Assembly: GCA_022841505.1 (NCBI GenBank)
Contig: JALHRK010000022.1
Location: 1-35,969 of the forward strand
Reading direction: 5' to 3'
Source: Saprospiraceae bacterium
GTDB taxonomy: Bacteria > Bacteroidota > Bacteroidia > Chitinophagales > Saprospiraceae
DNA: 35,969 bases
Shown here: positions 4,041-27,062 of the stretch, piece by piece
Layout: every line of letters begins with the position of its first letter
Position numbering within the stretch: position 1 is the first letter of the stretch
Translations under genes and position numbers: made by a program
Notes under the pieces: generated by a model
What the model was told of the DNA's origin: nothing
Database searches by the model: none
The model's input: only the letters and a program-made list of their open reading frames with translations

Positions 4041-5222
4041 ATGCAGACTGAAGTACAAGCCTTTGAGTTGGTTGAAACCCAAAAGGCATTAGAAGACTTT
4101 TACCGCGATAACGAACAGGCCCAATGGATGGCCTTCGATACGGAATTTGTGGGCGAAAAACGGTTCGTAACAAGACTTTGTTTAGTTCAGGCTGCGACCG
4201 AAAACGGGAATTACCTGATTGATCCCATTGCAATACCAGACCTTTCTCCATTTTTGAACCTGGTTCAAAACCCGGATTGCATCAAAATTACCCATGCGGG
4301 CGATAATGATTACCGGTTGCTTTATACTTTGTATGGCATCACACCCCGCAATGTTTTTGACACCCAGATTGCTGCCGGTTTTGCCGGGTACAAACACCCG
4401 GTTGCTTTTCGCAAATTGGTCGAACAGGAACTGGGGCGTTCGCTCGATAAAGGCTATGCCGTCACCGACTGGGAATCGCGGCCTTTTCACAAAAAGCAAC
4501 TGGCGTATGCCCTTGATGATGTGTTGCCTTTGTATCCGATTTGGCAAAGGCTGCAGGACCGCCTGCGCAAACGGGATCGCTTCCACTGGCTGGAAGAGGA
4601 ATGCCTGCAATTGGAAAACGCTGCTTCCTACATCAAGGACCACGAGCAGGAACTCATCAACAGCAATTTGATGAAATCATTGCGCCCGAAAGAACGACTG
4701 TTTTTTCTGAGGCTGATGACCTGGCGTCGGGATTTGGCTGAAAAAAAGAACTATTCTAAAGAAATGATCTTGCCTGAGCGCTACTTAGCGGTGCTTGCAC
4801 GCGGCATCGCTTCCGGAAAAGAAGCATTGCTGCACAACCGCCGGGTGCCGGATAAAATGATCGAACAACACGGATCGCTTTTCGAGTCTTTTTACCGCCA
4901 GGAAGCGACAGAAGCCGAACGCGCCCTGCTTGCTCAGGTCGTTTCGCAAGAAGATTCTGAAGATCCGCAGGAAGAAATTTTGCTGGAAATGCTCTACCTG
5001 CTCGTCCGCCATAAATGTTTGGAAAATGACATTTCGGTAGGGATGGTAATGCCCAAAAACCTGTTGCGACGCCTCCGGGCCGACGAAGAAGCCGGTAACC
5101 TTATCCAGGGCTGGCGGAAGGAACTGCTCGGGGAAGAACTGACGACCTGGCTGCTGCGCATCAATGAGTTGGAGCTGCATGTGGAAGGGGGGAAGATTGG
5201 GTTGGTACCCCGTAGGGGTTGA
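4041..5222 (+). CDS. rnd: Ribonuclease D (DEDDy 3'-5' exonuclease with HRDC-type C-terminus)
   Basis: Motifs AFDTEFVGEKRF, HAGDNDYRLL, YALDDVLPLYPI; 393 aa. Confidence 0.9.
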   Translation: MQTEVQAFELVETQKALEDFYRDNEQAQWMAFDTEFVGEKRFVTRLCLVQAATENGNYLIDPIAIPDLSPFLNLVQNPDCIKITHAGDNDYRLLYTLYGITPRNVFDTQIAAGFAGYKHPVAFRKLVEQELGRSLDKGYAVTDWESRPFHKKQLAYALDDVLPLYPIWQRLQDRLRKRDRFHWLEEECLQLENAASYIKDHEQELINSNLMKSLRPKERLFFLRLMTWRRDLAEKKNYSKEMILPERYLAVLARGIASGKEALLHNRRVPDKMIEQHGSLFESFYRQEATEAERALLAQVVSQEDSEDPQEEILLEMLYLLVRHKCLENDISVGMVMPKNLLRRLRADEEAGNLIQGWRKELLGEELTTWLLRINELELHVEGGKIGLVPRRG

Positions 5223-5292
5223 AAATATTCAACCCCTACGGACGGGTTGAAAATATTCAACCCCTACGGACGGGTTGAAAATTTTCAACCCC
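5212..5292. repeat. Tandem palindrome array (3 copies), GTAGGGGTTGAA-AATA-TTCAACCCCTAC
   Basis: 12-bp perfect stem in copy 1; 28-nt period; overlaps the rnd stop codon. Confidence 0.9.
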
Positions 5293-5311
5293 AATCGTAA
5301 TAATTGATAAA

Positions 5312-7066
5312 ATGCCGGATCAAAAAATATTGGAAATCAAGGGTTTAAAAACAACCTTCCGCGTAAACGGACAAGAAGTCCGGGCGGTGGATAGCATTGA
5401 TTTTCACGTATTGAAAGGGGAGACAATCGGGATAGTGGGCGAATCTGGTTCGGGGAAATCGGTAACGGCTTTGTCCGTGATGCAATTGGTGTCGAAGCCT
5501 GGGGTGATTGCCGGCGGCGAAATCCGCTATTTTCCAGAGAACGGGGAATCGGTGAACTTAGCTGCCTTGTCGGAAAAAGCGATGCAACGCTACCGGGGCG
5601 CCCGGATTGCGATGATTTTTCAGGAGCCGATGACCTCGCTCAACCCCGTTTTGCGTTGCGGAGAACAAGTTGCAGAAGCCATCCGGCTGCATCAAAAAAA
5701 ATCGCAAAAAATTGCCCGCCAGGAAACCCTGAATTTGTTTGAACAAGTGCAATTGCCCGACCCGGAGCGCATTTACAGCGCCTATCCGCACCAATTGTCT
5801 GGCGGACAGAAACAGCGCGTGATGATCGCGATGGCACTTTCCTGCAAGCCCGATATCCTCATCGCCGACGAGCCGACAACCGCCCTGGACGTCACGGTGC
5901 AACAAACGATCTTAACCCTGTTGAAGGAATTGAAGCGCAAGCTGGGACTTTCCGTCATTTTCATCAGCCATGACCTCGGCGTCATCGCTCAAATTGCCGA
6001 CCGCGCCCTGGTCATGTATGGCGGTAAAATTGTGGAACAGGGCAGTATTCATGAGCTATTTCAACATCCGAAACACCCCTATACCAAAGGCTTATTGGCT
6101 TGCCGCCCGCCATTGGACCGCCGCATGCGCCGCCTGCCGGTTGTGGAAGACTTCATGGAAATCACGCAAACGGAGTCGGGCATGGAACTGATCGAAAAAG
6201 CGGGTGCCGCCGATCGCCTTGCATCCCTTTCAGAAGCTCCGGATGCTTATCAAACCCGCCAGAATTTGCTTCAGCAACAACCCGCTTTGCTCAGCGTACA
6301 AAACCTGAGCGTCTGGTTTCCTGCGACGCGAAACTGGCTGGGACAGCCGCGCACGTGGGTGAAAGCGGTGGATGAAGTTAGCTTCGAAGTATTGCCCGGG
6401 GAAACGCTGGGCTTAGTCGGAGAATCGGGATGCGGAAAAACAACACTGGGGCGCGCCTTGCTGCACCTCTTGCCCGTCCGCAGCGGGGAGGTTATTTTTG
6501 ACGGGCAAGACCTCAACACGTTAGAAGCGAAGGCTTTGCGCCGGATTCGGAAAGATATTCAAATCGTTTTTCAAGATCCTTACGCTTCGCTCAACCCACG
6601 ATTGACGATCGGTCAAACTTTGCTGGAACCGTTAGCGCTGCACGGCATCGGGGCCGACGCGAAGGAACGCAAAGACCGGGTTTTGGCGCTATTGCAATCG
6701 GTTCAGCTCGGGCCGGAGTATTTTCAGCGGTACCCGCGTGAGTGTTCAGGCGGTCAACGGCAACGGGTGAGCATTGCACGCGCCTTAGCCAGCGAACCCC
6801 GGTTCATCGTTTTTGATGAATCCGTCTCTGCGCTCGATGTATCGGTACAGGCCCAGGTGCTCAACCTGCTGATGGCCCTGCGCGAAGAACGCGGGTTCAC
6901 CTGCATTTTTATCTCCCACGACCTCTCTGTTGTCAAACTCATGAGCGACCGCATCATAGTCATGAAACAGGGAAAAATTGTGGAATCAGGCTATGCAGAA
7001 GCAGTCTACGCCCATCCCAAAGCGCTGTATACGCAACAGTTGATCGGGGCTATTCCCGGGTTTTAG
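5312..7066 (+). CDS. Fused dipeptide/oligopeptide ABC transporter ATP-binding protein (two NBDs, DppD-DppF/GsiA type)
   Basis: Two Walker A (GESGSGKS, GESGCGKT), two signature motifs (LSGGQKQR, CSGGQRQR), two Walker B. Confidence 0.92.
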   Translation: MPDQKILEIKGLKTTFRVNGQEVRAVDSIDFHVLKGETIGIVGESGSGKSVTALSVMQLVSKPGVIAGGEIRYFPENGESVNLAALSEKAMQRYRGARIAMIFQEPMTSLNPVLRCGEQVAEAIRLHQKKSQKIARQETLNLFEQVQLPDPERIYSAYPHQLSGGQKQRVMIAMALSCKPDILIADEPTTALDVTVQQTILTLLKELKRKLGLSVIFISHDLGVIAQIADRALVMYGGKIVEQGSIHELFQHPKHPYTKGLLACRPPLDRRMRRLPVVEDFMEITQTESGMELIEKAGAADRLASLSEAPDAYQTRQNLLQQQPALLSVQNLSVWFPATRNWLGQPRTWVKAVDEVSFEVLPGETLGLVGESGCGKTTLGRALLHLLPVRSGEVIFDGQDLNTLEAKALRRIRKDIQIVFQDPYASLNPRLTIGQTLLEPLALHGIGADAKERKDRVLALLQSVQLGPEYFQRYPRECSGGQRQRVSIARALASEPRFIVFDESVSALDVSVQAQVLNLLMALREERGFTCIFISHDLSVVKLMSDRIIVMKQGKIVESGYAEAVYAHPKALYTQQLIGAIPGF

Positions 7067-7075
7067 TGTGAGCAA

Positions 7076-7167
7076 AAGACAAGTTGGCAAGAGGCAAATT
7101 GGCAAGAACCGAGAGCCAACTTGCCCATTTGTCTTTTGCCAATTTGCCTCTTGCAAACTTGCCTACT
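7076..7167. repeat. Word-like inverted repeat in a convergent spacer
   Basis: Perfect 19-nt core arms GCAAGAGGCAAATTGGCAA (7087-7105) / TTGCCAATTTGCCTCTTGC (7136-7154) within longer imperfect arms. Confidence 0.85.
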
Positions 7168-7174
7168 TCCTACA

Positions 7175-9568
7175 CTAACGCGCAACGCAAAACCGCCTCG
7201 CTGCCGTCTTCTTCCCATCCGCCTCAATCTGGTAGAAATAAACCCCGCTTTCCCAGGCGGATAAATCAATTCTAAGGGTCTGTTTCAAAACAGCGTTATC
7301 CAGCGCTTGTTGCCACACCTGTTGTCCCAATGCATTGAAAAAAAGTAGGTTGCTTTGAGGAACTTGCAGGTCGGCTGCTTTTTCTATTTCGATAAATGTA
7401 TAGTTTCGGGCCGGGTTGGGGTAACTTTGCACAAGCCGAAATTGAGTAGCGGGCAAGGGTTGAACTGAAGTGAGCAGGGTATCTGTCTGGTAAATGGATA
7501 GGTCATCAAAATAAAACCCGTCGTTGTTGTTGAACCCGTCTGAAGCCAACAAAAAACGCACCGACAATTGGTCGCCGGGCTGCACATACGGCGTCAGGTT
7601 CATTTCTTCGGCTACCCATTCCTGATTGATTCCGTCATAAATGGGTTCATCAAAGCTTTGAAACTGCCCGCCTGTGGTGGTGTATTTTCCACAAACCGGA
7701 ATGTATTCGTTGCCATTGACTGAAATCTGTACCTGAGCGTAATCGTAATTGGGTTCAATGTCCCAACGGGCACGGAAAAACAGTAAAGCCTGATCAAAAT
7801 CGGTCAGGGTCAGTGGTTCGTTCAATTCCAGAATAGTAAAGGCATTGTTTGCATAATTCTCATTCGGTGAATCAGTTATGCTGGTTGGGAATGAAAAATA
7901 AGCTTCGTCCGTAGTTCCCCAGACAGAAGGAGTCGTCCAGTTTTCAAGCGTATTGCCCTGTTCTTCAAATACCGCCGGTGAATTCATAAAAATGCCGCGC
8001 ACCGTATCCAGCTTTGTGTAAAAACCATTGTCGAGCGTCAGCAAAAAAAGTATTTCTTCGCCCTCTCGCATGTTGCTGTTGAGGGAATAAGAAATGGCGT
8101 CTTCAACCGTCTCAAAAGCAGCCGGTTGCAAAACTTTGGGGAGCCCCGTGGCCACCACATTGGCGCTGATGGGAGAAAGCGAAACGGTGAACGGGCCGTT
8201 AGCCAGGCCGTAGCGCTTTAGTTTGAACATAATTTCCCCCTGAGTTGCCGTAATTACAGGGTCATTGATGGCCGAAAGCACCCCGTAGCGATGGGGTAGG
8301 GCTGCCGTCGTCAAATTCATGAGCATGGTTGCTTTGCAATTTGGGAGGATATCCGAAACCGGCGGCCAGAAACCTTCCGTGCCCACTTCCGGTGTCATTG
8401 AATAAATGCGGGGTTTGATGGCCGCTTCGCCATACATCCAGTCGTCGGAGTTACCGTTTACTACGTAGCCCACCGTTTCGGTTCCGGTGCCTGCCCGAAA
8501 ATTGTTTTGCAGGGTCATCGCTTCCGCGAAAGCGCTGAACGTTTCGGCCTCGGCCGTTGGCGTGTCGGAATACCCCCAGGGATACACCAGCAGGTTGCCA
8601 TAGGTATGGTAATTCAATGCCGTGATGAACTTCCGTTGGTAACAAAAATCTCTGACTGCTTTTGTTTCCGGTTCAGAAAACGGGCCGGTGCCGCGGTAAA
8701 CGGCCGACGGTGGCGTAGACGAGGAGCCGACGTTATCAAACCCCCACTGATAGCCATAGTTCCGGTTCAAATCAACGCCGAGCGTATTGTCGTAATTTAC
8801 CTTGCGGTTTTTGCGCCAAAGACCGCCTCCGTTTGGGTTGGTAAATTCATTGTAGAGGTACCCGTCAGGATTCACACAAGGAATAAAATACAGTGCCGTA
8901 TTGTTGACCAAAAACTGAACTTCGGGATCAGTGGCATAATTTTCCAGCAGGTACCACATGAAAAAAATGAGGCTTGAAAGGCTGCCGGGTTCCCGGGCGT
9001 GGTGCAACGCGGTGTAAAGCACTTCCTTTTCCTGAAACTCCACGCTGTTCGGCTGGTCTGTAATGCGCACCCAATAGATCGGGCGTCCTTCCACACTTTG
9101 TCCTGCCTCGATGGGCGCCCGCACGCTGATGAGGTTCGGATATCGTGCGGCCATGGTATCCAAAATATCCAGCATTTCCTGGTAAGTAAAATAACCGCCC
9201 ATAGAACCAAGCTCGAATTGTGAAGGCGTTTCGTAAGGATAGCGATCCTGGCTTCCCGGGCACTCATCAGGCGGATTGCGCGAGCTACCTTCTTCATTCT
9301 GAGCTACATAATGAGCCTGTACGTCTTCAATCAGGATTTCTGTACGAAAGCCGGCTGCCCGTATTTGGGAGATTTCTTCTGATGAAAAATCGCTGATAAA
9401 AAAACGCCCGGTTGCAAATTCACCGTGGGAGACGTCAATGCCGAGTCGAGCCAATTGGAAAAGATTGCGGTCATCGAGCAATACTTTTACCCTGGAATAG
9501 GGCGCCTGCTGTGCAAAAACAGACAAACAGGCACAACAGCATAAGAGGAGTAAAGTCGCTTTTTTCAT
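7175..9568 (-). CDS. Secreted M14-family zinc carboxypeptidase with T9SS sorting domain
   Basis: Signal peptide from MKKATLLLLCCCACLSVFAQ; YTALHHAREPGS zinc motif; TPEVGTEGFWPP; C-terminal T9SS CTD. ORF track start 9658 trimmed to 9568. Confidence 0.9.
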   Translation of the reverse strand: MKKATLLLLCCCACLSVFAQQAPYSRVKVLLDDRNLFQLARLGIDVSHGEFATGRFFISDFSSEEISQIRAAGFRTEILIEDVQAHYVAQNEEGSSRNPPDECPGSQDRYPYETPSQFELGSMGGYFTYQEMLDILDTMAARYPNLISVRAPIEAGQSVEGRPIYWVRITDQPNSVEFQEKEVLYTALHHAREPGSLSSLIFFMWYLLENYATDPEVQFLVNNTALYFIPCVNPDGYLYNEFTNPNGGGLWRKNRKVNYDNTLGVDLNRNYGYQWGFDNVGSSSTPPSAVYRGTGPFSEPETKAVRDFCYQRKFITALNYHTYGNLLVYPWGYSDTPTAEAETFSAFAEAMTLQNNFRAGTGTETVGYVVNGNSDDWMYGEAAIKPRIYSMTPEVGTEGFWPPVSDILPNCKATMLMNLTTAALPHRYGVLSAINDPVITATQGEIMFKLKRYGLANGPFTVSLSPISANVVATGLPKVLQPAAFETVEDAISYSLNSNMREGEEILFLLTLDNGFYTKLDTVRGIFMNSPAVFEEQGNTLENWTTPSVWGTTDEAYFSFPTSITDSPNENYANNAFTILELNEPLTLTDFDQALLFFRARWDIEPNYDYAQVQISVNGNEYIPVCGKYTTTGGQFQSFDEPIYDGINQEWVAEEMNLTPYVQPGDQLSVRFLLASDGFNNNDGFYFDDLSIYQTDTLLTSVQPLPATQFRLVQSYPNPARNYTFIEIEKAADLQVPQSNLLFFNALGQQVWQQALDNAVLKQTLRIDLSAWESGVYFYQIEADGKKTAARRFCVAR

Positions 9569-9633
9569 GAGAAGATTTGATTTGAATGCGTACAAAGGGA
9601 AACCGGGCCAGGAACAAAGATCCGGTTGCGGTG

Positions 9634-9641
9634 CAAAGATA
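9634..9641 (-). promoter_or_regulatory. Bacteroidota -7 box TATCTTTG (for the M14 gene)
   Basis: Matches TAnnTTTG; no well-spaced -33 box seen. Confidence 0.4.
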
Positions 9642-9767
9642 ATAACCTGCCCCATCAAAGCCAGGGTGTGCGGGTTTTCTGTCAGCCAACATTCAAAAAG
9701 AAGCTTATGCTTAATGGGTAAAATGAAATACGTAACTTTCGCCGCAACTTTTCACAACCCAATACTC

Positions 9768-12182
9768 ATGGCAAAAAAATACCTCTTCTCTGTTTTTGCG
9801 GCTTTCTGTTTTATTATAGCCGTTCCTGTTACAGCCGGCGCGCAACCGGCTTGTCCCAACGGACAATCTTCCATCATTGTCAGTATCCTGACGGATGGGT
9901 ACGGCTACGAAATTTCCTGGTCGGTCATTGGTGCTAACGGCACAGTTTACCACCAAACCAATACCCAGACTTACGCCAACAATACCTTGTACCAAACCCA
10001 GGTTTGCGTCCCGGCGGAAGAATGCGTTACGGTTAATATTCGCGACACCTATGGCGATGGCATCCTGGCGCCAGGCTATTTCAACATCGTGCAGGACGGC
10101 GAACTCATCGCCAGCGGAGGGAATAATTACAATTATACCTTCTCCGTGACCGCCGGGTGCGCAGCCGGGCAAATCTGCAACCTCGCTGACACCATCATCG
10201 AGGGCGTATACCAAACGGCCTTCGACGAGCATTGGTATGTGTTTATTCCGGATTCGACCGGTTCTTATTTGGTTTCTACCTGCGGATTGGATACCTGTGA
10301 TACCAAAATCTGGATTTACGATCAATGCCCGGCCAATGGCGGCGCAGCCGACAATACCGGCACCATTTTCTACGATGACGACAAAGGCGGGTGCACGCCT
10401 CAGGCAAACGTAAACGGCTATTTTGAAGCCGGTTCAATCTATTACATCCGCATTGGAGACAAAGACGATGCCTGCGGAGACACCATTACCTGGGAAGTCC
10501 AATACCTTGGGCCCATCGTCGGTTGTACGGATTTGGGTTCCTGTAATTTCAACCCCTTGGCAACCGTAGACGATGGTTCCTGCTTACCGCAAACCCACCC
10601 TGATTGCCCGGAAGGGCCGGACTTGCTGGTACACCAGCAGACGTTGGCCAGCAGCATCTACCTCACCACGATCAATTCTACTGACCCCTGCTTAGTGGCG
10701 GAAGGATGCCTCCGGGGCTACGGCCAGCGCGATATTATTCGCTTTTCCACGCGCATTGACAACATTGGCGAAAAAGACTATTTCATTGGCGTTCCTGCTT
10801 TTGGCAATCCGCAATTTACTTACGACAATTGCCACAACCATTTCCATTACGATGGTTATGCTGAATATTTGCTTTTTGACAGCGAAGGCAATTCAAGTCC
10901 GGTTGGTTATAAAAATGGTTTTTGTGTACTCGATTTGTTCTGCCCGAACGGTGGTTTGGCCAAATACGGCTGCGGCAATATGGGGATTTCTGTAGGCTGC
11001 GCCGACGAATACAGCTCCGGCCTGCCCTGCCAGTGGATTGACGTGACGGATACGCCCGATGGCACCTACCTTTTTGTGACCCGCGTGAATTGGGACAACG
11101 CGCCCGATGCCTTAGGCCGTGTGGAAAAAGATACCATCAACAACTGGGCGCAGGTATGTATAACGCTGGATCGCTCTTCCGGCGCCTTGCAAATGACGGT
11201 GGACGCCAATTGCGCGCCGTTTGTTGATTGCGCGGGAACGCCGTATGGCAGCGCCCGCCCGGACTGCAACGGCGACTGCAACGGCACGGCGCAGATTGGC
11301 GACCTCGATGCAAATAGCTTACAAGAGGTCAACGATGCAGTAGCCTACGTGGAAGCCATCTTAGCCGACGACATCGAAGCGGCGCCCTGCAACGATCTCA
11401 ACGGCGATGGCGAAATTACCGTATTTGATGCGTCGCTGCTGGCCAGCTGCATCAACTACGGCACGGGGCACCTGCACGAGGGAACCGGCGAACACAACCA
11501 TTGCAATTTTCCTTTTGGGGTGAATAATCCCAACGACACGGTGGCCCTCAGCATCATTGCCGCAGATTTTGAACAAGGATATATTGACATCGGCATCCGC
11601 AACCCGCAGTCGCGTATCAACTCTTACCAGTTCCAGTTGGAAGGCGCGATGATCATGGAGGTGGAAAACTTAGTGGATCCTGCCGTTTACCCGATTGCGC
11701 CGCATGCAAACATTGCAGACGCCATGGTGATCGGTATTTCTTACCAGGATTCAATGATCAACAAGTCGGGCGACGTGCAGCCGCTTTGCCGCATTCGTTT
11801 GTTTGAAATCACCGCGGATACAATTTGCATCAAACAGGTGATCTCGGCAGTGAACAGCAACCAGGAACAGGCTTTTGCTTTTGTGGAAGGGGATTGCGTA
11901 GTTGCGCCCATTGTTGCGACTTTTGAGCCGCAGACGCAGCTTTCTGTTCAAATCCAGCCGAACCCGAGTTCCGGCAATGCGTTGCTGCGTTTCGACAACC
12001 CGAACCGGCAAAGCTTCCAACTCCTGCTGCTTGACGCAAATGGCCGCGTGGTAGGACAATACGAAAAAATTACCGGCAACGAAGTCGCGCTGAATGCCAC
12101 GAACCTGCCTAATGGCGTGTACGCTTACCGCCTGATTGGGGAATCGGTGAGTGCTGCCGGGCGTTGGGTAATTCAGCGGTAG
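9768..12182 (+). CDS. Secreted lysyl-oxidase-like protein with dockerin-like segment and T9SS sorting domain
   Basis: Start MAKKYLFSVFAAFCFIIAVPVTAGAQ; lysyl oxidase motif FTYDNCHNHFHYDGYAEYLLFD...GISVGCADEYSSGLPCQWIDVTD; DCNGDCNGTAQIGDLD... / DLNGDGEITVFDASLLASCI; C-terminal CTD. Upstream part of the ORF is likely untranslated. Confidence 0.85.
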   Translation: MAKKYLFSVFAAFCFIIAVPVTAGAQPACPNGQSSIIVSILTDGYGYEISWSVIGANGTVYHQTNTQTYANNTLYQTQVCVPAEECVTVNIRDTYGDGILAPGYFNIVQDGELIASGGNNYNYTFSVTAGCAAGQICNLADTIIEGVYQTAFDEHWYVFIPDSTGSYLVSTCGLDTCDTKIWIYDQCPANGGAADNTGTIFYDDDKGGCTPQANVNGYFEAGSIYYIRIGDKDDACGDTITWEVQYLGPIVGCTDLGSCNFNPLATVDDGSCLPQTHPDCPEGPDLLVHQQTLASSIYLTTINSTDPCLVAEGCLRGYGQRDIIRFSTRIDNIGEKDYFIGVPAFGNPQFTYDNCHNHFHYDGYAEYLLFDSEGNSSPVGYKNGFCVLDLFCPNGGLAKYGCGNMGISVGCADEYSSGLPCQWIDVTDTPDGTYLFVTRVNWDNAPDALGRVEKDTINNWAQVCITLDRSSGALQMTVDANCAPFVDCAGTPYGSARPDCNGDCNGTAQIGDLDANSLQEVNDAVAYVEAILADDIEAAPCNDLNGDGEITVFDASLLASCINYGTGHLHEGTGEHNHCNFPFGVNNPNDTVALSIIAADFEQGYIDIGIRNPQSRINSYQFQLEGAMIMEVENLVDPAVYPIAPHANIADAMVIGISYQDSMINKSGDVQPLCRIRLFEITADTICIKQVISAVNSNQEQAFAFVEGDCVVAPIVATFEPQTQLSVQIQPNPSSGNALLRFDNPNRQSFQLLLLDANGRVVGQYEKITGNEVALNATNLPNGVYAYRLIGESVSAAGRWVIQR

Positions 12183-12312
12183 GGTGTCTGGTTTTATAGT
12201 TCGATAGCTGCGTTATGCGGAGGGCCAAAATCGGTCATCCCGTCCGGCGGGCGGGACTCCCGTTTTTGGCCCTCCGCATGCCTTGCTCTCAAACTCTAAA
12301 AAGCAGACACCC
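12182..12312. repeat. ~131-nt nested imperfect palindrome
   Basis: Outer GGGTGTCTG / CAGACACCC; inner ATGCGGAGGGCCAAAA / TTTTTGGCCCTCCGCAT. Confidence 0.8.
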
Positions 12313-12430
12313 GACTAAGTGGATAGACGATAGTTAGGGGCTCTTTTATAGTCCGATTGCTACAGTACGCTCGACCGGTCCTGTAGGGACCTAATGCCGG
12401 TAGCCCCAGAGCACGTCGTATGGTTTCGTG

Positions 12431-12468: not shown

Positions 12469-12497
12469 TTTCTGAACCATGTCGAAGGACTAAATAG

Positions 12498-13364: not shown

Positions 13365-13383
13365 CCCTGATAAAATCATCCTT

Positions 13384-15346: not shown

Positions 15347-15349
15347 GAA

Positions 15350-16429
15350 CTAAACCTTCGCCCCTCTTCCCCGCAACAAATGATCCGCCACCACCAACGC
15401 CGCCATCGCCTCCACAATCGGCACCGCGCGCGGCAGTACACACGGATCATGCCGCCCTTTTCCGCTAACCATCGCCGGTTCGCCCTGTTCATTCACCGAT
15501 TCCTGTTCGGCAACGATGGTCGCCACGGGTTTAAACGCCGCGCGGAAGTAAATATCCATGCCATTGGAGATGCCGCCCTGGATGCCGCCGGAGTGGTTGG
15601 TGCGCGTTTTGATGGCCCCGCCGTCGTTGTAGAACGCGTCGTTGTGTTCAGAGCCACGCAGGGTAACGCCTTCAAAGCCTGAACCGTATTCGAACCCCTT
15701 GCAGGCATTAATGCTCAGCATGGCTTTGCCGAGGTCGGCGTGCAGCTTGTCGAAAACCGGTTCGCCCAACCCTGCCGGGCAGTTTTGAATCACGCAACTC
15801 ACCACGCCCCCGATGGTGTCGCCGGCTTTGCGCACTTCGCGGATCAACGCTTCCATTTGTATGGCCATCTCCGGGTCGGGGCAGCGCACCGGGTTGCTTT
15901 CGGTGAGCAATAAATTCAGCGCTTCGTAAGGTTGTGCCAATTTCAGCTGCCCAACCTGGCTGACATAAGCCGAAACGCTTATCCCGTTCTCCATCAAAAA
16001 CAGTTTGGCAATAGCGCCCGCAGCAACCCGGGCCGCCGTTTCGCGCGCGGAAGAACGCCCGCCGCCCCGGTGGTCGCGCAGTCCAAACTTGCTTTGCCAC
16101 GTAAAATCGGCGTGCGAAGGCCGGAAAGCTTCCGCAATGTGGTTGTAATCCTGCGAGCGGGCGTCGGTATTGGGAATGACCATGGCAATGGGCGTTCCGG
16201 TGCTTTTTCCTTCAAAGATACCCGACAGGATTTGCACGGTATCGGATTCTTTCCGCTGGGTGACGATGGCCGATTGTCCCGGGCGCCGGCGGTCCAGCTC
16301 TGATTGTATGAAACCCTCGTCAATCGTTAAACCTGCGGGGCAACCATCCACCACCACGCCAATGGCGGCGCCGTGCGATTCACCAAAGGTGCTGATCCGA
16401 AAAACATTCCCAAAACTACTGCCGGCCAT
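15350..16429 (-). CDS. aroC: Chorismate synthase
   Basis: [55 protein letters not shown]. Confidence 0.97.
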
Positions 16430-16448
16430 GTGCGCTTAATTTTATCCG

Positions 16449-16456
16449 CAAAGGTA
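16449..16456 (-). promoter_or_regulatory. Bacteroidota -7 box TACCTTTG (for aroC)
   Basis: Matches TAnnTTTG just upstream of the aroC start. Confidence 0.4.
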
Positions 16457-16564
16457 GCGACTTCAAAGGAACTTTCTTTCCCGGGAAGCGTTTGTATTCC
16501 ACCTGCGAGCATGGGAGGAGGAGGAAAGTTTGTATTTTCGCCCCGTGGCGTTAAACATTATAAA

Positions 16565-18946
16565 ATGGAACTGGAACCGAAGGATTTATACGAAAAATTA
16601 GAATTCAATAAGGTCATCGAACTGCTGGAGGAGGCTTGCCTGGGTGAACAGGGCCGGGAAGCCGTGCATCAGATTGTGCCGTTGGACGACCGCCTGGCCA
16701 TCGAGCGCCTGCTGGAGGAAGTGAAAGAATACAAGCTCACCATTGAGCAGAACGACCCTTTTCCCATCAAAACGTATTTCGAGATCACGGAAGACCTGCG
16801 CATGCTGGAAATTGTGGATTTCGTGCTGCCGGAAGAAGGATTTCGCCGCATCAACATCGTGTTGCTGTTTGTGCGCGACATGGTTCGGTTTTTCAACGCA
16901 GCGCGCCGCCTGATTTATCCCGCCCTCTACGACATCATCCGGCCTGTGCCTTTTGACGAAAGTCTGCTCGAAGCCATTGAACGCGTAATTGATGAAGACG
17001 GCAATATCCGGCCCGACGCTTCCCCAAAGTTGCTGAAAATCCGCAAAAGCATCCAGGCCCGGCAAAAGGAATTGGATAAAGTATTCCGGATGCTGGCCAA
17101 CGAATACCGCAACAAAGGCATGCTCAGCGACAACGTGGAGAGTTTCCGAAACGGCAGGCGGGTATTGAGTGTGCCTTCCGAACACAAACGCAAAATCAGG
17201 GGCATCATCCACGATGAATCCACAACGGGGAAGACAGCGTTCATCGAACCCGAACCCGTCATCGAAATCAACAACGACATTTTTGACCTCGAAACCGAAG
17301 AGCGCCGCGAAATTTACCGAATCCTGAAAGAATTGAGCACCACCGTGCGGCCTTACGTCCCGGTGATGCGCGACTACCAGGAACTCATCATCCGGTTCGA
17401 TCTCGTGCATGCCAAAGCCCGGTTGGCGGTGCGCATGAACGCGAATCTGCCGCGGTTGGTGAAGCGGTTGGTCATCAGCGTCCAGGATGCTTACCACCCG
17501 CTGTTGTATCTAAAAAACAAACAATCCGACAAAACGACGGTTCCTTTTACCCTGACTTTGTCGCAAAATAACAGAATCCTCATCCTAAGCGGGCCCAACG
17601 CCGGCGGTAAATCCGTCACGATGAAGTCGGTGGGGTTGTTGCAACTCATGCTCCAATGCGGCCTGCTCATCCCGGTGAGCCAGGAATCTGAAATGGGCGT
17701 ATTCAGCAAGTTTTTTGCCGACATCGGCGACCAGCAATCGCTTGAAGACGACCTCAGTACGTACAGTTCGAGGTTGGCGAATGCGCGCTTGTTTCTGGAA
17801 AACGCCGACGACCGCACGCTGGTGCTGATTGACGAATTTGGTTCGGGCACCGACCCGAAAATTGGGGGCGCCATTGCAGAAGGCGTACTGCGCGAGTTAA
17901 ATTTTCGGAAGGTTTTTGGAGTGATTACCACCCACTATTCCAACCTCAAGGTTTTTGCATTCAAAACAAAAGGCTTAGTCAACGGCTCTATGTTTTTTGA
18001 CAAAGACCACCTGTTGCCTACGTATGAATTGAAAGTCGGACGCCCGGGCAGCTCTTATGCATTCGAAATTGCAGAAAAAATTGGCCTCGACGACCGGGTG
18101 ATGCAATATGCGCGCCAGAAAATCGGTCAAAATGAAAAAGCGGTAGACGAGCTGCTGGTGGATTTGCAACGCGAAAAACAGGAGTCGGAAGAGCTGCTCA
18201 AAGAGCTGACGCAAAAGCAGCAACAACTCGATAAGCTGATCCGCAACTACGAACAACTGCACTTAGACCTCGAATTCCGGCGCAAAAAAGTGAAGTTAGA
18301 AACCAAGGAGAAGGACTTCGAGCAAACGGCGCAGCAAAACAAGGATTTCGAGCGCATCATCCGGGAAATCAAGGAAGCGCAAAACCTTGAAAAAGCGAAA
18401 GAACTGGCCATGAAAGCCAAAGAAAGCCGCCGCCAGATCGAAGAAGAAATTGTTCAGATCAAAGAAGAAATTTACCAACCCATCCGTTCCAATAAAAAAG
18501 CAGAAGTCAAAATCGGCGACTACGTCAAACTGCGCAGCGGTGGCGCCACGGGTTTGGTGGAAGCCATCGAAAAAGGCAAAGCAATCGTACTGATGGGGCA
18601 AATGCGCATGAAAATCAACTCTGCCGACTTATTGCAAGCCAACGAACCCCTCGACGTGCAATCGCACCGCAGCGTACAAACCGACGCGGTGCAACAGGCA
18701 GCAGCGTTCCAACCCAAAATTGACGTGCGCGGCATGCGCATGGAGGAAGCCATGAAAATGGTGGAAGAATTCGTGGATCGGGCAATTGTCAACGGCTCTG
18801 CAGAGTTGCGCATCGTTCACGGCAAAGGCGACGGTATCCTGCGCAAAGTGGTGCGTCAGAAAATACGGGAATACAATATGCCCGTGGAAATTTCGCATCC
18901 GCCGGCAGAGGATGGCGGGGATGGGGTGACGATTGTTAAAATTTGA
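16565..18946 (+). CDS. mutS2: Endonuclease MutS2
   Basis: MELEPKDLYEKLEFNKVIELL start; Walker A GPNAGGKSVTMKSVG; DEFGSGTDP; C-terminal Smr domain (DVRGMRMEEAM...RIVHGKGDGILRKVV). ORF track start 16373 trimmed. Confidence 0.95.
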   Translation: MELEPKDLYEKLEFNKVIELLEEACLGEQGREAVHQIVPLDDRLAIERLLEEVKEYKLTIEQNDPFPIKTYFEITEDLRMLEIVDFVLPEEGFRRINIVLLFVRDMVRFFNAARRLIYPALYDIIRPVPFDESLLEAIERVIDEDGNIRPDASPKLLKIRKSIQARQKELDKVFRMLANEYRNKGMLSDNVESFRNGRRVLSVPSEHKRKIRGIIHDESTTGKTAFIEPEPVIEINNDIFDLETEERREIYRILKELSTTVRPYVPVMRDYQELIIRFDLVHAKARLAVRMNANLPRLVKRLVISVQDAYHPLLYLKNKQSDKTTVPFTLTLSQNNRILILSGPNAGGKSVTMKSVGLLQLMLQCGLLIPVSQESEMGVFSKFFADIGDQQSLEDDLSTYSSRLANARLFLENADDRTLVLIDEFGSGTDPKIGGAIAEGVLRELNFRKVFGVITTHYSNLKVFAFKTKGLVNGSMFFDKDHLLPTYELKVGRPGSSYAFEIAEKIGLDDRVMQYARQKIGQNEKAVDELLVDLQREKQESEELLKELTQKQQQLDKLIRNYEQLHLDLEFRRKKVKLETKEKDFEQTAQQNKDFERIIREIKEAQNLEKAKELAMKAKESRRQIEEEIVQIKEEIYQPIRSNKKAEVKIGDYVKLRSGGATGLVEAIEKGKAIVLMGQMRMKINSADLLQANEPLDVQSHRSVQTDAVQQAAAFQPKIDVRGMRMEEAMKMVEEFVDRAIVNGSAELRIVHGKGDGILRKVVRQKIREYNMPVEISHPPAEDGGDGVTIVKI

Positions 18947-19021
18947 AGATTAGTTAATTTGAAAATTTGAAAATTGAGGTGTGAACTCAATCTTCAAATT
19001 TTCAAATCTTCAAATCATCAA
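18941..19021. repeat. Inverted repeat, family A, filling the mutS2/ndk convergent spacer
   Basis: Arms 18957-18978 ATTTGAAAATTTGAAAATTGAG and 18986-19007 CTCAATCTTCAAATTTTCAAAT (21/22 complementary), plus further repeat words on both sides covering both stop codons. Confidence 0.85.
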
Positions 19022-19437
19022 ATTATTTCTTGTCCGGCAAAATGGAACGCAGATTCAATGGCCGCGTTTTCGTCTGAATCAGAGCCATGAACGGCGTTTT
19101 CGCCAACATTTTTTGCATAGAGCGCGCGAATGGTGCCTGGTTCAGCTTTAGCCGGATCGGTAGCGCCAATCAGTTTGCGAAAATCTTCCACGGCGTTGTC
19201 TTTTTCAAGAACTGCGGCCACAATCGGGCCCGAAGACATAAAATCAACTAATTCGCCGTAAAAAGGACGTTCTTTGTGAACGGCATAAAATGCGCCTGCT
19301 GTTTGAGCAGACATGCGCGTGAGCTTCATCGCCACAATGCGGAAACCCGCTTGGTTGATTTGAGCCAAAATTGCGCCAATATGTCCCGAAGCTACAGCGT
19401 CGGGTTTGATCATGGTGAACGTGCGGTTGCCTGTCAT
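19018..19437 (-). CDS. ndk: Nucleoside diphosphate kinase
   Basis: [30 protein letters not shown] active-site histidine motif. Confidence 0.97.
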
Positions 19438-19487
19438 ATTCCTGATAGTTATGATAATTAGAAGGTACATGGGGTTAAAAAACGCCG

Positions 19488-19495
19488 CAAAGGTA
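19488..19495 (-). promoter_or_regulatory. Bacteroidota -7 box TACCTTTG (for ndk)
   Basis: Matches TAnnTTTG upstream of ndk. Confidence 0.4.
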
Positions 19496-19554
19496 AGAAT
19501 CAGTCAATATTTTCATAACAATTTCTAATTTCGCACCCTGATTATAGCACGCGC

Positions 19555-20559: not shown

Positions 20560-20574
20560 TTTATACCTACTTTT

Positions 20575-21468
20575 ATGAGAATCACTTTGTTTTTGTTATT
20601 GCTGGGCGCCATTTTAGTGGCTTCCTGCCAACCGGAAAAGCAGAAAACAAGCCAGGGCTACGAATATATCGTGCATAAAAGCGCGGGGGCTGAGAAGCCG
20701 AATTCGGGCGACTACGTCTATTTTCATGCCTACGTCCGCAATGGCGATTCCGTCGTCATGAATACCCGTACGCAGCCTCAGTTGCCGCATTTTCAATTAT
20801 CTGACCCTACTGCGCCAAAAGACCCTGCACAACAGGCTTCACCAGTAGAAGATGTACTCCGCATGTTAGGAGTTGGCGACAGTGCGACCATTTTTATTCC
20901 GTTGGATACGGTAAAAAACAAACCTGCCGGATTTGAAGATGCTGCGATGCTTTACTACGATATCGTGTTGGTAGACATCAAAACAAACGAAGAGTACATG
21001 GCAGACATGGCGAAAGAACGCGAAGTTAAAATGGCGGAAGCGGAAGTAACCATGGCAAGATTACCTGAAATTGAAGCATCTGCAGCAGATGTACTCAAGA
21101 AATACAAATCAGGCGCGCTGGCAAGCCAGATCAAAACGACTGCTTCCGGCCTTAAATACCTGATTCAGGAAGAAGGCACCGGTCCGGCGCCTGCTCTTGG
21201 AAAGCCAATCACGGTTCATTATCATGGATTATTGGCGGATGGCAAAATGTTCGACAGTTCTTTCGGACGCGGCGAACCCATCGAGTTTCCCCTTGGCGTA
21301 GGTCAGGTGATTCCGGGTTGGGATGAAGGCCTTTCCCTGATGAAACAAGGCGGTAAAGCCACCCTCTTTATTCCTTACCAACTTGCTTACGGAGAGGCAG
21401 GCAGCCCACCGGTAATTCCTCCCAAAGCCGAACTGATTTTTTATGTTGAAGTGGTGAAAGCGCAGTAG
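20575..21468 (+). CDS. FKBP-type peptidyl-prolyl cis-trans isomerase, probable lipoprotein
   Basis: Lipobox ILVASC; GKPITVHYHGLLADGKMFDSSFGRGEPIEFPLGVGQVIPGWDEGL. Confidence 0.93.
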   Translation: MRITLFLLLLGAILVASCQPEKQKTSQGYEYIVHKSAGAEKPNSGDYVYFHAYVRNGDSVVMNTRTQPQLPHFQLSDPTAPKDPAQQASPVEDVLRMLGVGDSATIFIPLDTVKNKPAGFEDAAMLYYDIVLVDIKTNEEYMADMAKEREVKMAEAEVTMARLPEIEASAADVLKKYKSGALASQIKTTASGLKYLIQEEGTGPAPALGKPITVHYHGLLADGKMFDSSFGRGEPIEFPLGVGQVIPGWDEGLSLMKQGGKATLFIPYQLAYGEAGSPPVIPPKAELIFYVEVVKAQ

Positions 21469-21570
21469 TGATTTGAAGATTTGATGATTTGAAAATTTGA
21501 TGATTGGAGCCATTTCCCATCATCAAATTTTCAAATCCCCAATTTTCAAATTTTCAAATCTTCAAATTTT
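21469..21570. repeat. Inverted repeat, family A, between FKBP gene and prfB
   Basis: 19-nt perfect arms GATTTGAAAATTTGATGAT (21486-21504) / ATCATCAAATTTTCAAATC (21519-21537) plus extra CAAATTTT words. Confidence 0.88.
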
Positions 21571-21574
21571 CGTT

Positions 21575-22670
21575 ATGACTATCGAGCAATTAAAAAATGT
21601 AAAAGACCGATTAGGTGTTCTGGGGAGGTATCTTTGACGTCCAGGGACGATTGATACAAATTGAAGAAAAAGAACAACAATCCCTTGACCCCAACTTCTG
21701 GAATGATCCGAAAGCTGCCGAAGCGGTGCTTAAGGACATGAAAATGCACAAAAACTGGGTTCGGCAATACCAGGTTACTGCCGGCCATGTAGACGACCTC
21801 GAAGTGCTGTACGAGTTTTTCCGAGAAGGAGAAGCCACAGAAATTGAGGTTGACGCCAAATATAAGGAAGCCCTCGAATCCGTCGAGGAACTGGAATTCC
21901 GATCCACCCTCAACCGCCCCGAAGACGAACTCGGGTGCATCCTCGAAATCAACGCCGGTGCCGGCGGCACTGAAAGCTGCGACTGGTCGGAAATGCTCCT
22001 GCGCATGTACACCATGTGGGCCGAACGCAGTGGGTTCAAAGTGACGGAACTCAACCGTCAGGACGGTGATATGGCGGGCATTAAATCAGTAGAAATTGAA
22101 GTGGAAGGCGACTTCGCTTACGGATGGCTCAAAGGCGAAAACGGCGTACACCGCCTGGTGCGCGTGAGCCCGTTCAATTCGCAGGGCAAACGCATGACTT
22201 CCTTCTCTTCCGTCTTTGTACACCCCATGGTGGACGAACGCATTCAGGTGGACATCAACCCAGTTGACCTGGAATGGGACACCTTCCGCGCAAGCGGCGC
22301 AGGCGGGCAGCACGTTAACCGGACGGAATCTGCGGTGCGGGTACGACATTTGCCCAGCGGCTTGGTCGTAGAATGCCAGCAGGAACGCAGCCAGATCCAG
22401 AACCGCGAAACCGCGATGCGCATGTTGCGGTCAAAACTCTACGAACTGGAACTGAAAAAGCAAATGGCGGAACGCGAAAAAGTGGAAGCCGGCAAAATGA
22501 AAAATGAGTGGGGCTCGCAAATTCGTAGCTATGTGCTCGACGACCGTCGCGTGAAAGACCACCGCACCGGCCACCAAACCAGCCAAACGGATGCCGTGCT
22601 GGACGGGGATTTGGACGGGTTTTTGAAGGCGTTTTTGATGCACCGGGACGACGTAGGGGCAATTGATTAA
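21575..22670 (+). CDS. prfB: Peptide chain release factor 2, with programmed +1 frameshift
   Basis: MTIEQLKNVKDRLGVLGRYL then CTT TGA C (TGA 21635-21637), +1 shift into DVQGRLIQIEEK...; GGQHVNRTESAVR GGQ motif. Confidence 0.96.
21624..21638 (+). promoter_or_regulatory. Programmed ribosomal frameshift site of prfB
   Basis: SD-like GGAGG followed by TATCTTTGAC; in-frame TGA with continuation in +1 frame. Confidence 0.93.
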
Positions 22671-22926
22671 TTGCCCCGTCCCATAACGGCAATTGATTAA
22701 TTGCCCCGCCCATAACGGCAATTGATTAATTGCCCCGCCCATAACGGCAATTGATTAATTGCCCTGCCCATAACGGCAATTGATTAATTGCCCCGTCCCA
22801 TAACGGCAATTGATTAATTTACCCTATACGGGCAATTGATTAATTTACCCTATACGGGCAATTGATTAATTGCCTACCCCATACGGGCGCCTATCCCCAT
22901 ACGGGCAATTGATTAATTGCCCCTAC
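22653..22926. repeat. Tandem palindrome array, 9 copies of CAATTGATTAATT plus one degenerate unit, ~29-30 nt period
   Basis: GTAGGGGCAATT-GATT-AATTGCCCC units; array bounded by GTAGGGG at one end and CCCCTAC at the other. Confidence 0.93.
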
Positions 22927-24038
22927 ATGGTTGCCCCATCGGTTAATTGGATTTCCATCCAAACCGGCTGATGATCAGAATATTTAAAATCCTGATTCAG
23001 GGTTTTAATTCCCAGGGCCTTTACGTTGGGCGAAATCAGAAAAAAATCAATAATGGTGACGAAGGTTTCGCCCGGCTGGTAGGTAAATTTGGTTTTCCTG
23101 TTGGAAGGCGTCACCGGGTCGTAAACCCACCGCCAGTCATCCGGAAGAAAACCATCTTCGATGTTAAGTTGGTGGTAGCCCTGCGTTTTTCCGGGCATGA
23201 AGGTGTCAAATTTGAAAAACGGCGGACACTGATTCCAGTCGCCGGCCGCGACCACATAATTGCCTTTTTCGTATTCTTTCAGAAACAATTCGCGCAAAAA
23301 AGCCATCTCCTGGCGCTTCAGCTCGCCTTCGCGGTCGTGGGCAGAATTGTGGATATTGAACACCACCAGTTCTTTCCCGTTTTTTACTTTATATCGAAAC
23401 ACAGCAGCGCAGCGATCCAGCTGAAAAATGCGCGTAGGCCATGCAAATTCGCCGGGAAGTTGGTAGCGCGTAGCTTCTGCCGGCTGAAAACGACTCCACG
23501 AACCCAATCCGCTCTCAACCCGGCCATAAGCATTCCAGGGCTCCAAAATGGGCAAAGGCACCCGCTTCACCAGAAAGTTGGTTGAAAATGTCGCGGCATA
23601 TTGCGGCAGTAGTTCAGAAATCCGCTGAAACTGGTTGACTCCGTAACTGCGCTTGGCATCCGTGTCTACTTCCTGAAACAGGAAAAAATCAGCGGCCGTG
23701 GTCTTCATAAAATTGAAAATACCTTCATGGTTTTTGTCGCTCAATGCCTTGGAGGGCCGAACCATCGCACCGCCGGAAAACAACATCCTGCCCTGGTCGA
23801 ATGAAAAATTGCTTTCGGCGCCCAAGCCGCCATAGCCGATATTCCAGGTAATGAAGCTCAAAATGCTGTCTTCCGGAATCGGAGCAACAGCAGCCGCTTT
23901 TGTACTTTGCAACGGGATGATCTGCTCGGGCTGGTAATCTGTTGAAGTGCCGTGAATGACGACTACGGCCACGTACAGCAGGACAATCAATGACAATAGC
24001 GCCAGGTATTTCAGGGCGCGTTTGAGGTAAGTTGGCAT
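22923..24038 (-). CDS. Endonuclease/exonuclease/phosphatase (EEP) family protein, membrane-anchored
   Basis: MPTYLKRALKYLALLSLIVLLYVAVVVIHG anchor; ITWNIGYGG, FLFQEVDTD, AAGDWNQ, SDHQPVWMEI. ORF track start 24158 trimmed. Confidence 0.9.
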   Translation of the reverse strand: MPTYLKRALKYLALLSLIVLLYVAVVVIHGTSTDYQPEQIIPLQSTKAAAVAPIPEDSILSFITWNIGYGGLGAESNFSFDQGRMLFSGGAMVRPSKALSDKNHEGIFNFMKTTAADFFLFQEVDTDAKRSYGVNQFQRISELLPQYAATFSTNFLVKRVPLPILEPWNAYGRVESGLGSWSRFQPAEATRYQLPGEFAWPTRIFQLDRCAAVFRYKVKNGKELVVFNIHNSAHDREGELKRQEMAFLRELFLKEYEKGNYVVAAGDWNQCPPFFKFDTFMPGKTQGYHQLNIEDGFLPDDWRWVYDPVTPSNRKTKFTYQPGETFVTIIDFFLISPNVKALGIKTLNQDFKYSDHQPVWMEIQLTDGATM

Positions 24039-24209
24039 GTGAACCTTGAGAAGGTTAAAGGGTAAAGTAAAAAGGATAAAGCCGTTGATCGTTGTTCGTT
24101 TGGAACTCCACGTAACGAGGAATATATAGTTGCTTTTGGTTGTTCGTTTGGCGTTCATGTTGAAGGAGTACGTATTTCAAAAATACTTCATTACAGGCTT
24201 TACGTCTCA

Positions 24210-24259
24210 CAACGAACAACGCTCAACTAACAACGCTCAACTAACAACGAACAACCAAC
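24210..24259. repeat. Word-like direct repeats (CAACGCTCAACTAA x2, AACGAACAAC x2)
   Basis: Seen directly; complementary words (GTTGTTCGTTTGG) occur nearby at ~24083-24152. Confidence 0.7.
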
Positions 24260-24838: not shown

Positions 24839-24926
24839 AGTTCTATTGTTTTTGAATACTATCTTGAGGCATAGAAACGCATTTTATCCCCAGAAGATTA
24901 TAATTTTGCTACAACATAAGCAATCC

Positions 24927-25826
24927 ATGTCAAACTACACCGAAAAAACACCCTCCCCACAGAAATCCTCGTTCCGCGATACAAGGCCCAACTACCTCTA
25001 TGCTATTGTCAGTGTGTCGTTGGTTTTGTTTCTGTTGGGATTTTGCGGATTGGTGGTGATCTATGCCCAGCGCTTAGTGACTGCGTTCAAAGAACGGGTA
25101 AATGTACTGATAGAATTGGAAGAATCAACGGCGCCGGAACAAGTGGCCACCATAAAAACCGGTATCGAAGAAAGTGTTTTTGTCAAGCCCGGCACGGTTC
25201 AACTCATCAGCAAAGAAGACGCAGCCCGCTCCATGGCAGAAGCTTTCGGGGAAGATTACAGCAAATTGGACATGCCCAACCCTTACCGCGACATGTTGAG
25301 CTTTAATGTAAGAGCGGCCTATATGGCGTCTGACAGCCTCAATCGCATCAAGCAGGCCATCCTTCAGGAAGCAGGCGTTGCCGAAGTGTTTTATCAGGAA
25401 AATATTGTGGACAACATTGCCGGCAATGTCGGGCGCTTTGCTTATGCTGCGCTGGTCGTTTGCCTTTTTTTTATCCTGATTGCCATCGTGCTGATTCACA
25501 ATACGGTCCGATTGGCTTTGTACGCCAACCGGTTCATTATCAAAAACATGCAATTGGTGGGCGCCTCGTGGGAGTTCATCAGCCGGCCTTATCTGCAGCG
25601 TGCCATCCTGCACGGACTGCTCAGTGGGGTGATCGCTATTGGCGTCCTGTTGCTGCTGGTGTTCTGGGCGCAAAAAGACCTGCCGGAACTGAAAAGCTTG
25701 CAGGATATTTATAGCTTTGCACTCTTGTTTTCCATCCTGATTGTGCTGGGTATTTTGATCAACACATTGAGCACCTACTTTGTGGTGCGCAAATACCTGA
25801 AAATGCGGGTGGATGATCTGTATTGA
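24927..25826 (+). CDS. ftsX: Cell division protein FtsX (ABC permease-like)
   Basis: Start MSNYTEKTPSP; N-terminal TM plus three C-terminal TMs; ERVNVLIELEESTAPEQVATIKTGIEE; MQLVGASWEFISRPYLQRAILHGLLSG. Confidence 0.9.
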   Translation: MSNYTEKTPSPQKSSFRDTRPNYLYAIVSVSLVLFLLGFCGLVVIYAQRLVTAFKERVNVLIELEESTAPEQVATIKTGIEESVFVKPGTVQLISKEDAARSMAEAFGEDYSKLDMPNPYRDMLSFNVRAAYMASDSLNRIKQAILQEAGVAEVFYQENIVDNIAGNVGRFAYAALVVCLFFILIAIVLIHNTVRLALYANRFIIKNMQLVGASWEFISRPYLQRAILHGLLSGVIAIGVLLLLVFWAQKDLPELKSLQDIYSFALLFSILIVLGILINTLSTYFVVRKYLKMRVDDLY

Positions 25827-25830
25827 GGAG

Positions 25831-25976
25831 ATGTTAGATATTAGATTTTAGACATTAGACGAGAGCTTTTACTTGTTGGAAATCAATGAGTAAAATAAAG
25901 TTTCTAAAGTCTTTCAACATTGTCAAAATCTACCGGGGGGTCTAATATCTAAAATCTTTAATCTAAAATCTATCAA
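25831..25976. repeat. Word-like inverted repeat (TTAGATATTAGATTTTAGA)
   Basis: Left ~25835-25861 and right ~25940-25975 imperfectly complementary, about 80 nt apart. Confidence 0.7.
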
Positions 25977-25980
25977 ATCA

Positions 25981-26289
25981 ATGAGTGCCAATAATCCGCA
26001 AAAGAAAAAAGTAGTAGTTCCGGTTCAGAAGCCGCAGGTGGCTGCCCGGACAACGCCCGTTGCATCCGTCCGGAAAGCTGAACTGGTTTTCAACAAAACG
26101 AGCTATATCTGGATGGGCGCGGGTTTGGCCCTGATTTTCATCGGATTGCTGTTGATGAGCGGCGGTAAAATGCCAAGCCCGGAAATCTGGGATGAGGATA
26201 TTATTTACAGCTTTCGGCGCACCGTGCTGGCGCCTATTTTTATTCTCGCCGGCTTAGTTGTTGAAATTGCAGCCATTTTTAAGCGATAA
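25981..26289 (+). CDS. DUF3098 family membrane protein
   Basis: 102 aa with two TM helices; conserved position after ftsX in Bacteroidota. Confidence 0.75.
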   Translation: MSANNPQKKKVVVPVQKPQVAARTTPVASVRKAELVFNKTSYIWMGAGLALIFIGLLLMSGGKMPSPEIWDEDIIYSFRRTVLAPIFILAGLVVEIAAIFKR

Positions 26290-27012
26290 ATGACCATTCC
26301 TTCCCCGCAAGATTTCCTCAACGGCGTCACCCTGCTCGTGGATAAGCCCAAAGGCTGGACTTCCTTCGATGTGGTGAATAAAATCCGCTTTGCCCTGCGA
26401 CGCTACACCGGCGATAAAAAAATCAAGGTGGGCCACGCCGGCACGCTGGATCCCATGGCAACGGGGCTACTCGTTATCTGCACGGGCAAATCCACCAAAC
26501 TACTGCACGAATACCAGGGTTTTTCCAAAGTCTATACCGGAACCATCCTGTTGGGCGCCACCACGCCTTCCTACGATTTGGAAACGGAAATTGACGCGCG
26601 CTTCCCAACGGAGTACCTCACGCCGGCTTTGCTGGAAGCCGCCCGGCAACAGTTTTTGGGAGAAATCGCCCAATTGCCGCCTATGTTCTCAGCCATTAAA
26701 GTGGAGGGCGAAGCGCTGTACAAAAAAGCCCGCAAAGGCGAATCCATCGAATTACAACCCCGCCAAATCCGCATTGATGCCTTCGACCTCACCCGCATTG
26801 AGCTGCCGGAAGTGGATTTTTACGTGGCGTGCAGCAAAGGCACCTACATCCGTTCGTTAGCTTATGATTTTGGCAAAGCGCTCCAAAACGGCGGTTGTTT
26901 GTCGGCTTTGCGCCGAACCCAGATCGGAGAATTTAAAGTGGACGATGCCTGGCAGGTTGGGGATTTTGTGGATGCCGTTTCCGTACCGCCGAACTCCAGT
27001 TCTCCGAAATAG
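26290..27012 (+). CDS. truB: tRNA pseudouridine(55) synthase
   Basis: LVDKPKGWTSFDVV, KVGHAGTLDPMATGLLVICTGKSTK, KGTYIRSLAYDFG. Confidence 0.96.
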   Translation: MTIPSPQDFLNGVTLLVDKPKGWTSFDVVNKIRFALRRYTGDKKIKVGHAGTLDPMATGLLVICTGKSTKLLHEYQGFSKVYTGTILLGATTPSYDLETEIDARFPTEYLTPALLEAARQQFLGEIAQLPPMFSAIKVEGEALYKKARKGESIELQPRQIRIDAFDLTRIELPEVDFYVACSKGTYIRSLAYDFGKALQNGGCLSALRRTQIGEFKVDDAWQVGDFVDAVSVPPNSSSPK

Positions 27013-27062
27013 CACTCGCCGTACCGTACCGCCGAACTCCAGTTCGGCGGAATAACACTCGC
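26983..27062. repeat. Two-copy palindrome repeat CCGCCGAACT-CC-AGTTCGGCGG
   Basis: Copy 2 (27029-27050) is a perfect 10-bp hairpin; copy 1 (26986-27007) is degenerate and lies within the truB 3' end. Confidence 0.88.

Follow-up and report, generated by a model that had tools for sequence, protein, structure and literature searches.

Palindromic repeat arrays behind genes of a Saprospiraceae bacterium and their overlap with stop codons

The stop codons of several genes in a Saprospiraceae bacterium lie within palindromic repeats of unrelated sequence, which raises the question of whether such repeats provide gene endings or occupy the space behind genes. The stretch of DNA in question (the window, 35,969 nt) forms contig 22 in a draft assembly of 7.5 Mb, which comprises 999 contigs. 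We conclude, with a probability of roughly 0.7, that the arrays are lineage-specific palindromes resembling repetitive extragenic palindromes (REPs), tolerated behind genes as in ordinary REP-like biology, and not routine providers of gene endings. The evidence comes from the placement of arrays across the genome and from the stop positions of relatives.

Stop codons and arrays in the window

An earlier note on this DNA had placed six stops, those of rnd, mutS2, ndk, prfB, the EEP nuclease gene and truB, within repeat units; the sequence and the open reading frames bear out each of them. The features are as follows, with an asterisk for the stop in protein tails.

605-3805, minus strand: AsmA-family gene
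3819-3878, unstranded: family A (ATTTGAA-octamer) inverted array in the divergent gap between the AsmA-family gene and rnd
4041-5222, plus strand: rnd (DNA_pol_A_exo1 and HRDC); TGA at 5220-5222 inside GTAGGGGTTGAAAATATTCAACCCCTAC; tail RRG*
5210-5292, plus strand: family D array, three units of GTAGGGGTTGAAAATATTCAACCCC type, covering the rnd stop
7072-7161, unstranded: family C (GGCAAG/TTGCC) inverted array between the convergent ABC ATPase and M14 peptidase genes
12178-12323, plus strand: element B, a structured dispersed element of ~125 bp, starting at the lysyl-oxidase stop (12180-12182)
16373-18946, plus strand: mutS2; TGA at 18944-18946
18938-19025, unstranded: family A (ATTTGAA-octamer) inverted array filling the convergent mutS2/ndk gap and covering both stops
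19018-19470, minus strand: ndk; stop at 19018-19020
21470-21571, unstranded: family A inverted array beginning 1 nt past the FKBP stop (21466-21468)
21615-22670: prfB; TAA at 22668-22670 inside the first CAATTGATTAATTG unit; tail GAID*
22650-22935, plus strand: CAATTGATTAATTG array of seven exact and further diverged units, spanning the prfB and EEP nuclease stops
22923-24158, minus strand: EEP nuclease gene; TAG at 22923-22925, from the terminal GTAGGGG
26290-27012: truB; TAG at 27010-27012 in copy 1 of a 43-bp direct repeat; tail VPPNSSSPK*
26981-27066, plus strand: two direct 43-bp units with CCGCCGAACT...AGTTCGGCGG palindromes, the first providing the truB stop

The mutS2 and ndk stops lie at opposite ends of one inverted array. 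Other arrays lie adjacent or near to the stops of FKBP, lysyl-oxidase, ABC ATPase (7064-7066) and M14 peptidase (7175-7177), as had also been noted, and the family A array at 3819-3878 does sit between two divergent 5' ends, as the proposed counter-example. A same-genus relative (G001, ~85% DNA identity) lacks the latter array and carries a similar array in the ABC ATPase/M14 gap. Elsewhere in the window, a TTAGATATTAGA-type inverted octamer array (25829-25971) begins a few nucleotides past the stop of an ftsX-like gene. The window gave no match in Rfam, and a tRNA search of it found none.

Placement of arrays across the genome

Genes and palindromes were called in 1.62 Mb (22%) of the same genome, sampled in stretches. 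At a score of at least 12, this sample holds 227 palindromic arrays, compared to five in a Markov-2 shuffle. Among them, 198 are wholly intergenic, nine lie inside coding sequences and 20 overlap at least one stop (12 in convergent and eight in tandem gaps, four covering two stops). None overlaps a start, a softer figure than the stop counts as starts from our home-made gene caller are approximate. Arrays occur in 32% of the gaps between convergent genes, in 18% of those between tandem genes and in 10% of those between divergent ones. Within tandem gaps, the upstream stop is nearer than the downstream start for 104 of 135 arrays, with 31 the other way (P=2e-10), at median distances of 34 nt to the stop and 95 nt to the start.

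For the placement tests we took the 202 arrays in gaps shorter than 1.5 kb and placed each at random within its own gap, permitting an invasion of 5-30 nt into the neighbouring genes. Tandem arrays overlapped eight stops against 5.8-20.1 expected (5.8 at 5 nt of invasion), and convergent arrays 16 against 22-28, whereas tandem overlaps with starts numbered zero against 5.7-19.9. For nine of the 24 stops concerned, the overlap amounts to just 1-2 nt. Because of these counts and the 3'-biased positions in tandem gaps, we conclude that arrays prefer 3' flanks and avoid starts, but do not seek stops. Of the earlier suggestion of insertion or expansion targeted to gene 3' ends, the strong placement behind genes is therefore borne out; enrichment at the stops themselves, the genome-wide comparison it had called for, was not seen, overlap being about at or below expectation. 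An excess of stop triplets within the arms was also considered and rejected, with 403 in-frame stops against 477 expected from base composition.

The low overlap would suit pure chance, namely a palindrome-rich genome with short gaps and a window that happens to hold several overlapped stops. The window does lie on the rich side: among the arrays used for the placement tests, three of the ten in the window cover a stop, compared to 17 of the 192 outside it (Fisher P=0.06). But the asymmetry between 5' and 3' ends, seen in the 20 arrays over stops and none over starts as well as in the tandem positions, needs selection or targeting. Chance is thus refuted for position relative to starts and adequate for the stop overlap itself; as a full account it is highly improbable.

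Stop positions in relatives

Counterparts of arrays elsewhere in the genome were sought in G001 by means of the flanking coding ends. For 17 overlapped stops with a counterpart, the C-terminal length is unchanged in eight and differs by 1-3 residues in another eight, and truB is eight residues longer; in one of the eight unchanged cases (L090 18545) both genomes have a repeat of the same family, so that it is no test of absence. Among array-free control genes, 15 of 21 showed no difference and 19 of 21 differed by three residues at most. By this comparison, the overlapped genes are slightly more variable at the C-terminal tip, but not reshaped.

The individual genes of the window mostly follow this pattern. 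In G001, prfB ends in MHREDVEVID* at the same place as MHRDDVGAID* in the window, mutS2 ends in VRL* instead of VKI*, ndk in LEVF* instead of QEII*, and FKBP keeps its TAG. In 42 relatives the mutS2 stop is shifted by no more than two residues, and the ndk stop falls on the identical residue in 16 of the 17 compared. The nearest named relative in our collection, a Saprospiraceae metagenome-assembled genome with 94% identity in mutS2, shares its mutS2 and ndk tails with contig C53 of G001. These tails were read from printed sequence, in which ~70 nt downstream is visible for most relatives; within that DNA the array of the window is absent, and a few relatives (e.g. L257, L266 and L268) carry other octamer-type repeats. 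As for prfB, the stop predates the array. The exact CAATTGATTAATTG unit occurs within the genome at the prfB locus only. Since G001 has AATTGATTAAT across this stop, the array may have arisen by amplification of the gene end itself; G001 also has a related hairpin a few nucleotides further on.

Only truB provides a clear exception. The same-genus protein ends in DLTNAMMA* and that of the window in DFVDAVSVPPNSSSPK*, so the repeat has clearly replaced the C-terminus and provides the stop. The EEP nuclease has no counterpart in G001; six relatives within the family end 3-5 residues earlier, and here too the repeat probably provides the stop. For rnd the origin of the stop is undecided. The tail resembles those of relatives in length, one of them having a tail at least as long, and the matching G001 contig (C231, at the end of L155) stops ~14 nt short of the site that corresponds to the repeat, where the assembly may have broken at a repeat. 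Thus, the claim that repeats supply stops and last residues survives for truB and probably for the EEP nuclease, but the C-termini of relatives without the repeat speak against it for mutS2, ndk and prfB, where the stop position is kept.

Gap lengths offer an account of the overlaps. At four convergent pairs the gap measures 34, 11, 13 and 35 nt in G001, compared to 66, 56, 70 and 86 nt in the genome of the window, where an array fills it. An array of ~60-90 bp in so short a gap must reach the last codons of its neighbours. We propose that several unrelated REP-like families, some with arms of 7-8-bp tandem units, spread through the genome and expand locally, and that purifying selection would remove copies in coding sequence or near starts. 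Copies behind genes would be tolerated, most of all between converging genes, where short ancestral gaps (11-35 nt at the four loci) would let an array run into the terminal codons, or just the final bases, of the gene on one side or on both. The proteins would keep their length to within ~3 residues, with the old stop kept or replaced in place, and only rarely, as in truB and probably in the EEP nuclease gene, would a repeat provide a new stop and tail.

Several points weigh against this account. Where the outer 36 nt held stops in two to three frames, stop overlap was more frequent (16/89 against 8/152, P=0.003), an effect that falls to P=0.07 once the gene's own stop is left out; some matching of stops at insertion may therefore contribute. 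The polarity, gain here as opposed to loss in G001, is judged from this single genome of the same genus together with distant ones, and exact insertion junctions or target duplications are beyond mapping at ~85% DNA identity. The number of families, their positions, the burst in one lineage, the conserved stops and the growth of gaps are all shown by the data. As no transposase is tied to these families, spread by insertion followed by selective filtering is what we infer of the mechanism, and a function of the hairpins at the RNA level is likewise conjectural.

Repeat families, alternatives and known systems

The arrays of the sample belong to element B (42 arrays by a broad motif), family A (22), family C (19), family D (10) and several smaller families, with 88 in no family. 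Among 89 arms of at least 20 nt, 12 have an 8-bp and nine a 7-bp period. Family D follows the pattern GGGG..GAAAATTTTC..CCCC, and GTAGGGG...CCCCTAC palindromes have 11 matches on each strand. The exact family A pattern has 167 matches genome-wide and none for a reversed control, and its 22-mer is found 229 times here, four times in G001 and not at all in 23 other members of the family, a burst in the lineage of the window. ATTTGA points inward in 16 of 16 left arms and TCAAAT in none, so a reading frame entering from either side soon meets TGA. A CAACTAACAACG heptamer array (window 24208-24259) has dozens of copies in G001 and only two matches of its 12-mer in the 1.62 Mb. These families document a fast, species-specific turnover of REP-like repeats in the Saprospiraceae, where we found little repeat annotation and, in the one literature collection searched, no named repeat.

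Element B stands apart. Flank motifs identify 36 full-length copies in the sample, and an alignment of 33 of them revealed invariant loops and hypervariable stems, with compensatory changes on both sides in 21 of 40 predicted pairs and few G-U pairs. It has no Rfam match at E<=1. With a covariance model, at least 53 copies were recovered in this genome, 19 matches on both strands at ~10 distinct places in G001, none in the other family members searched, and nine and one in two genomes that belong to the same order but to other families. This patchy spread points to mobility with the structure under constraint. This separate covarying element, which may act as DNA or as RNA, deserves its own study.

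Could the hairpins instead be selected 3'-end elements, such as terminators, stabilisers of mRNA 3' ends or insulators of converging transcripts, with unrelated families recruited repeatedly? The order convergent, tandem, divergent and the proximity to stops would fit such a role, and in E. coli ribosomes stall at REPs located no more than 15 nt from a stop, according to work cited in PMC12306157. The arms of an array also pair better with each other than with those of other arrays, a biased comparison as arms were chosen by pairing. Moreover, at mutS2-ndk (GGCAAG type) and at two other convergent pairs (L084, L107) the same gap holds a hairpin of unrelated sequence family in G001. However, three replacements among ~10 convergent pairs resemble the 32% convergent background and are no proof of recruitment, and several orthologous gaps in G001 hold no hairpin. 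A U-tract (at least six T in 9 nt) follows 4.7% of hairpins against 4.4% in random gaps, on which ground intrinsic (rho-independent) terminators were rejected for most arrays; family A arms are A+T-rich. Of the combined stop-plus-hairpin end that the earlier note had suggested, selection for the terminator form thus finds no support in U-tracts, and the remainder, like the reading as a whole, we regard as unlikely. A broader version holds that sequence-unrelated hairpins of the same design refill gene 3' ends across species and are useful there, with families interchangeable and position and structure kept. The mutS2-ndk gap, with family A here, the GGCAAG hairpin in G001 and other octamer hairpins in more distant Saprospiraceae, could illustrate it, but we hold this version to be decidedly unlikely.

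Equally, REPs moved by a RAYT (REP-associated tyrosine transposase of the Y1 type) could insert at gene 3' ends through stop-like motifs (GTAG, TTGA) and so supply stops. The GTAGGGG...CCCCTAC palindromes and the more frequent stop overlap of stop-containing arrays would agree with this, as would the GTAG REPs of other phyla, which are RAYT-linked and often provide TAG stops (PMC3733652). However, the GTAG tag is missing from family A, stops are not clearly overlapped more often than under random placement, and most of them are ancestral. The search for a transposase dedicated to these families, or a RAYT flanked by the same repeat, yielded only two weak PF01797 matches and no dedicated transposase. 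One of the two, a RAYT-like Y1 gene (L111 1423-2007), has GCAAGTCAGAGACTTGC palindromes upstream, and these are absent from the 1.62 Mb sampled. The RAYT mechanism raised earlier is, in our view, improbable, and we retain the account of REP-like palindromes tolerated behind genes. It carries a caution for annotation, since a stop overlapped by a repeat is easily misread; comparison with the relative shows the stop to be usually the older of the two, the repeat having come to occupy the gap afterwards.

That repeats can supply stops is already known. GTAG REPs are short multicopy palindromes mainly in convergent and tandem gaps, often less than 20 bp from the 3' end, whose termini often supply a TAG stop to the flanking frame; they are RAYT-linked and listed for other phyla, the Bacteroidetes being represented by CGTC repeats only (Di Nocera et al. 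2013, PMC3733652). The arrays here share the many dispersed, mainly intergenic copies and the preference for 3' flanks in convergent and tandem gaps, but fall into several unrelated families, most without GTAG, and consist of symmetric palindromes or octamer-built arms with no associated RAYT found here. A 20-40-bp unit tagged by GTAG or CGTC at one end is not seen: family A has neither tag, and family D units start with GTAG but are symmetric. TAACTGA heptamer repeats carry stops in all three frames, overlap gene ends by up to 18 nt (MacGregor 2015, PMC4679880) and occur in a few Bacteroidetes too (PMC4679880). They resemble the present arrays in having a short tandem unit that can overlap a gene end, but differ in unit, are direct instead of inverted, and in the studied genome lie mostly just upstream of start codons (PMC4679880), which our arrays avoid. 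In E. coli, 446 of 4,072 REPs have a stop no more than 15 nt away, with possible effects on translation and mRNA (RepRanger, PMC12306157, and work cited there); the present repeats are a different sequence family. Altogether, the arrays of the window are REP-like repeats that belong neither to the GTAG REPs nor to a RAYT system.

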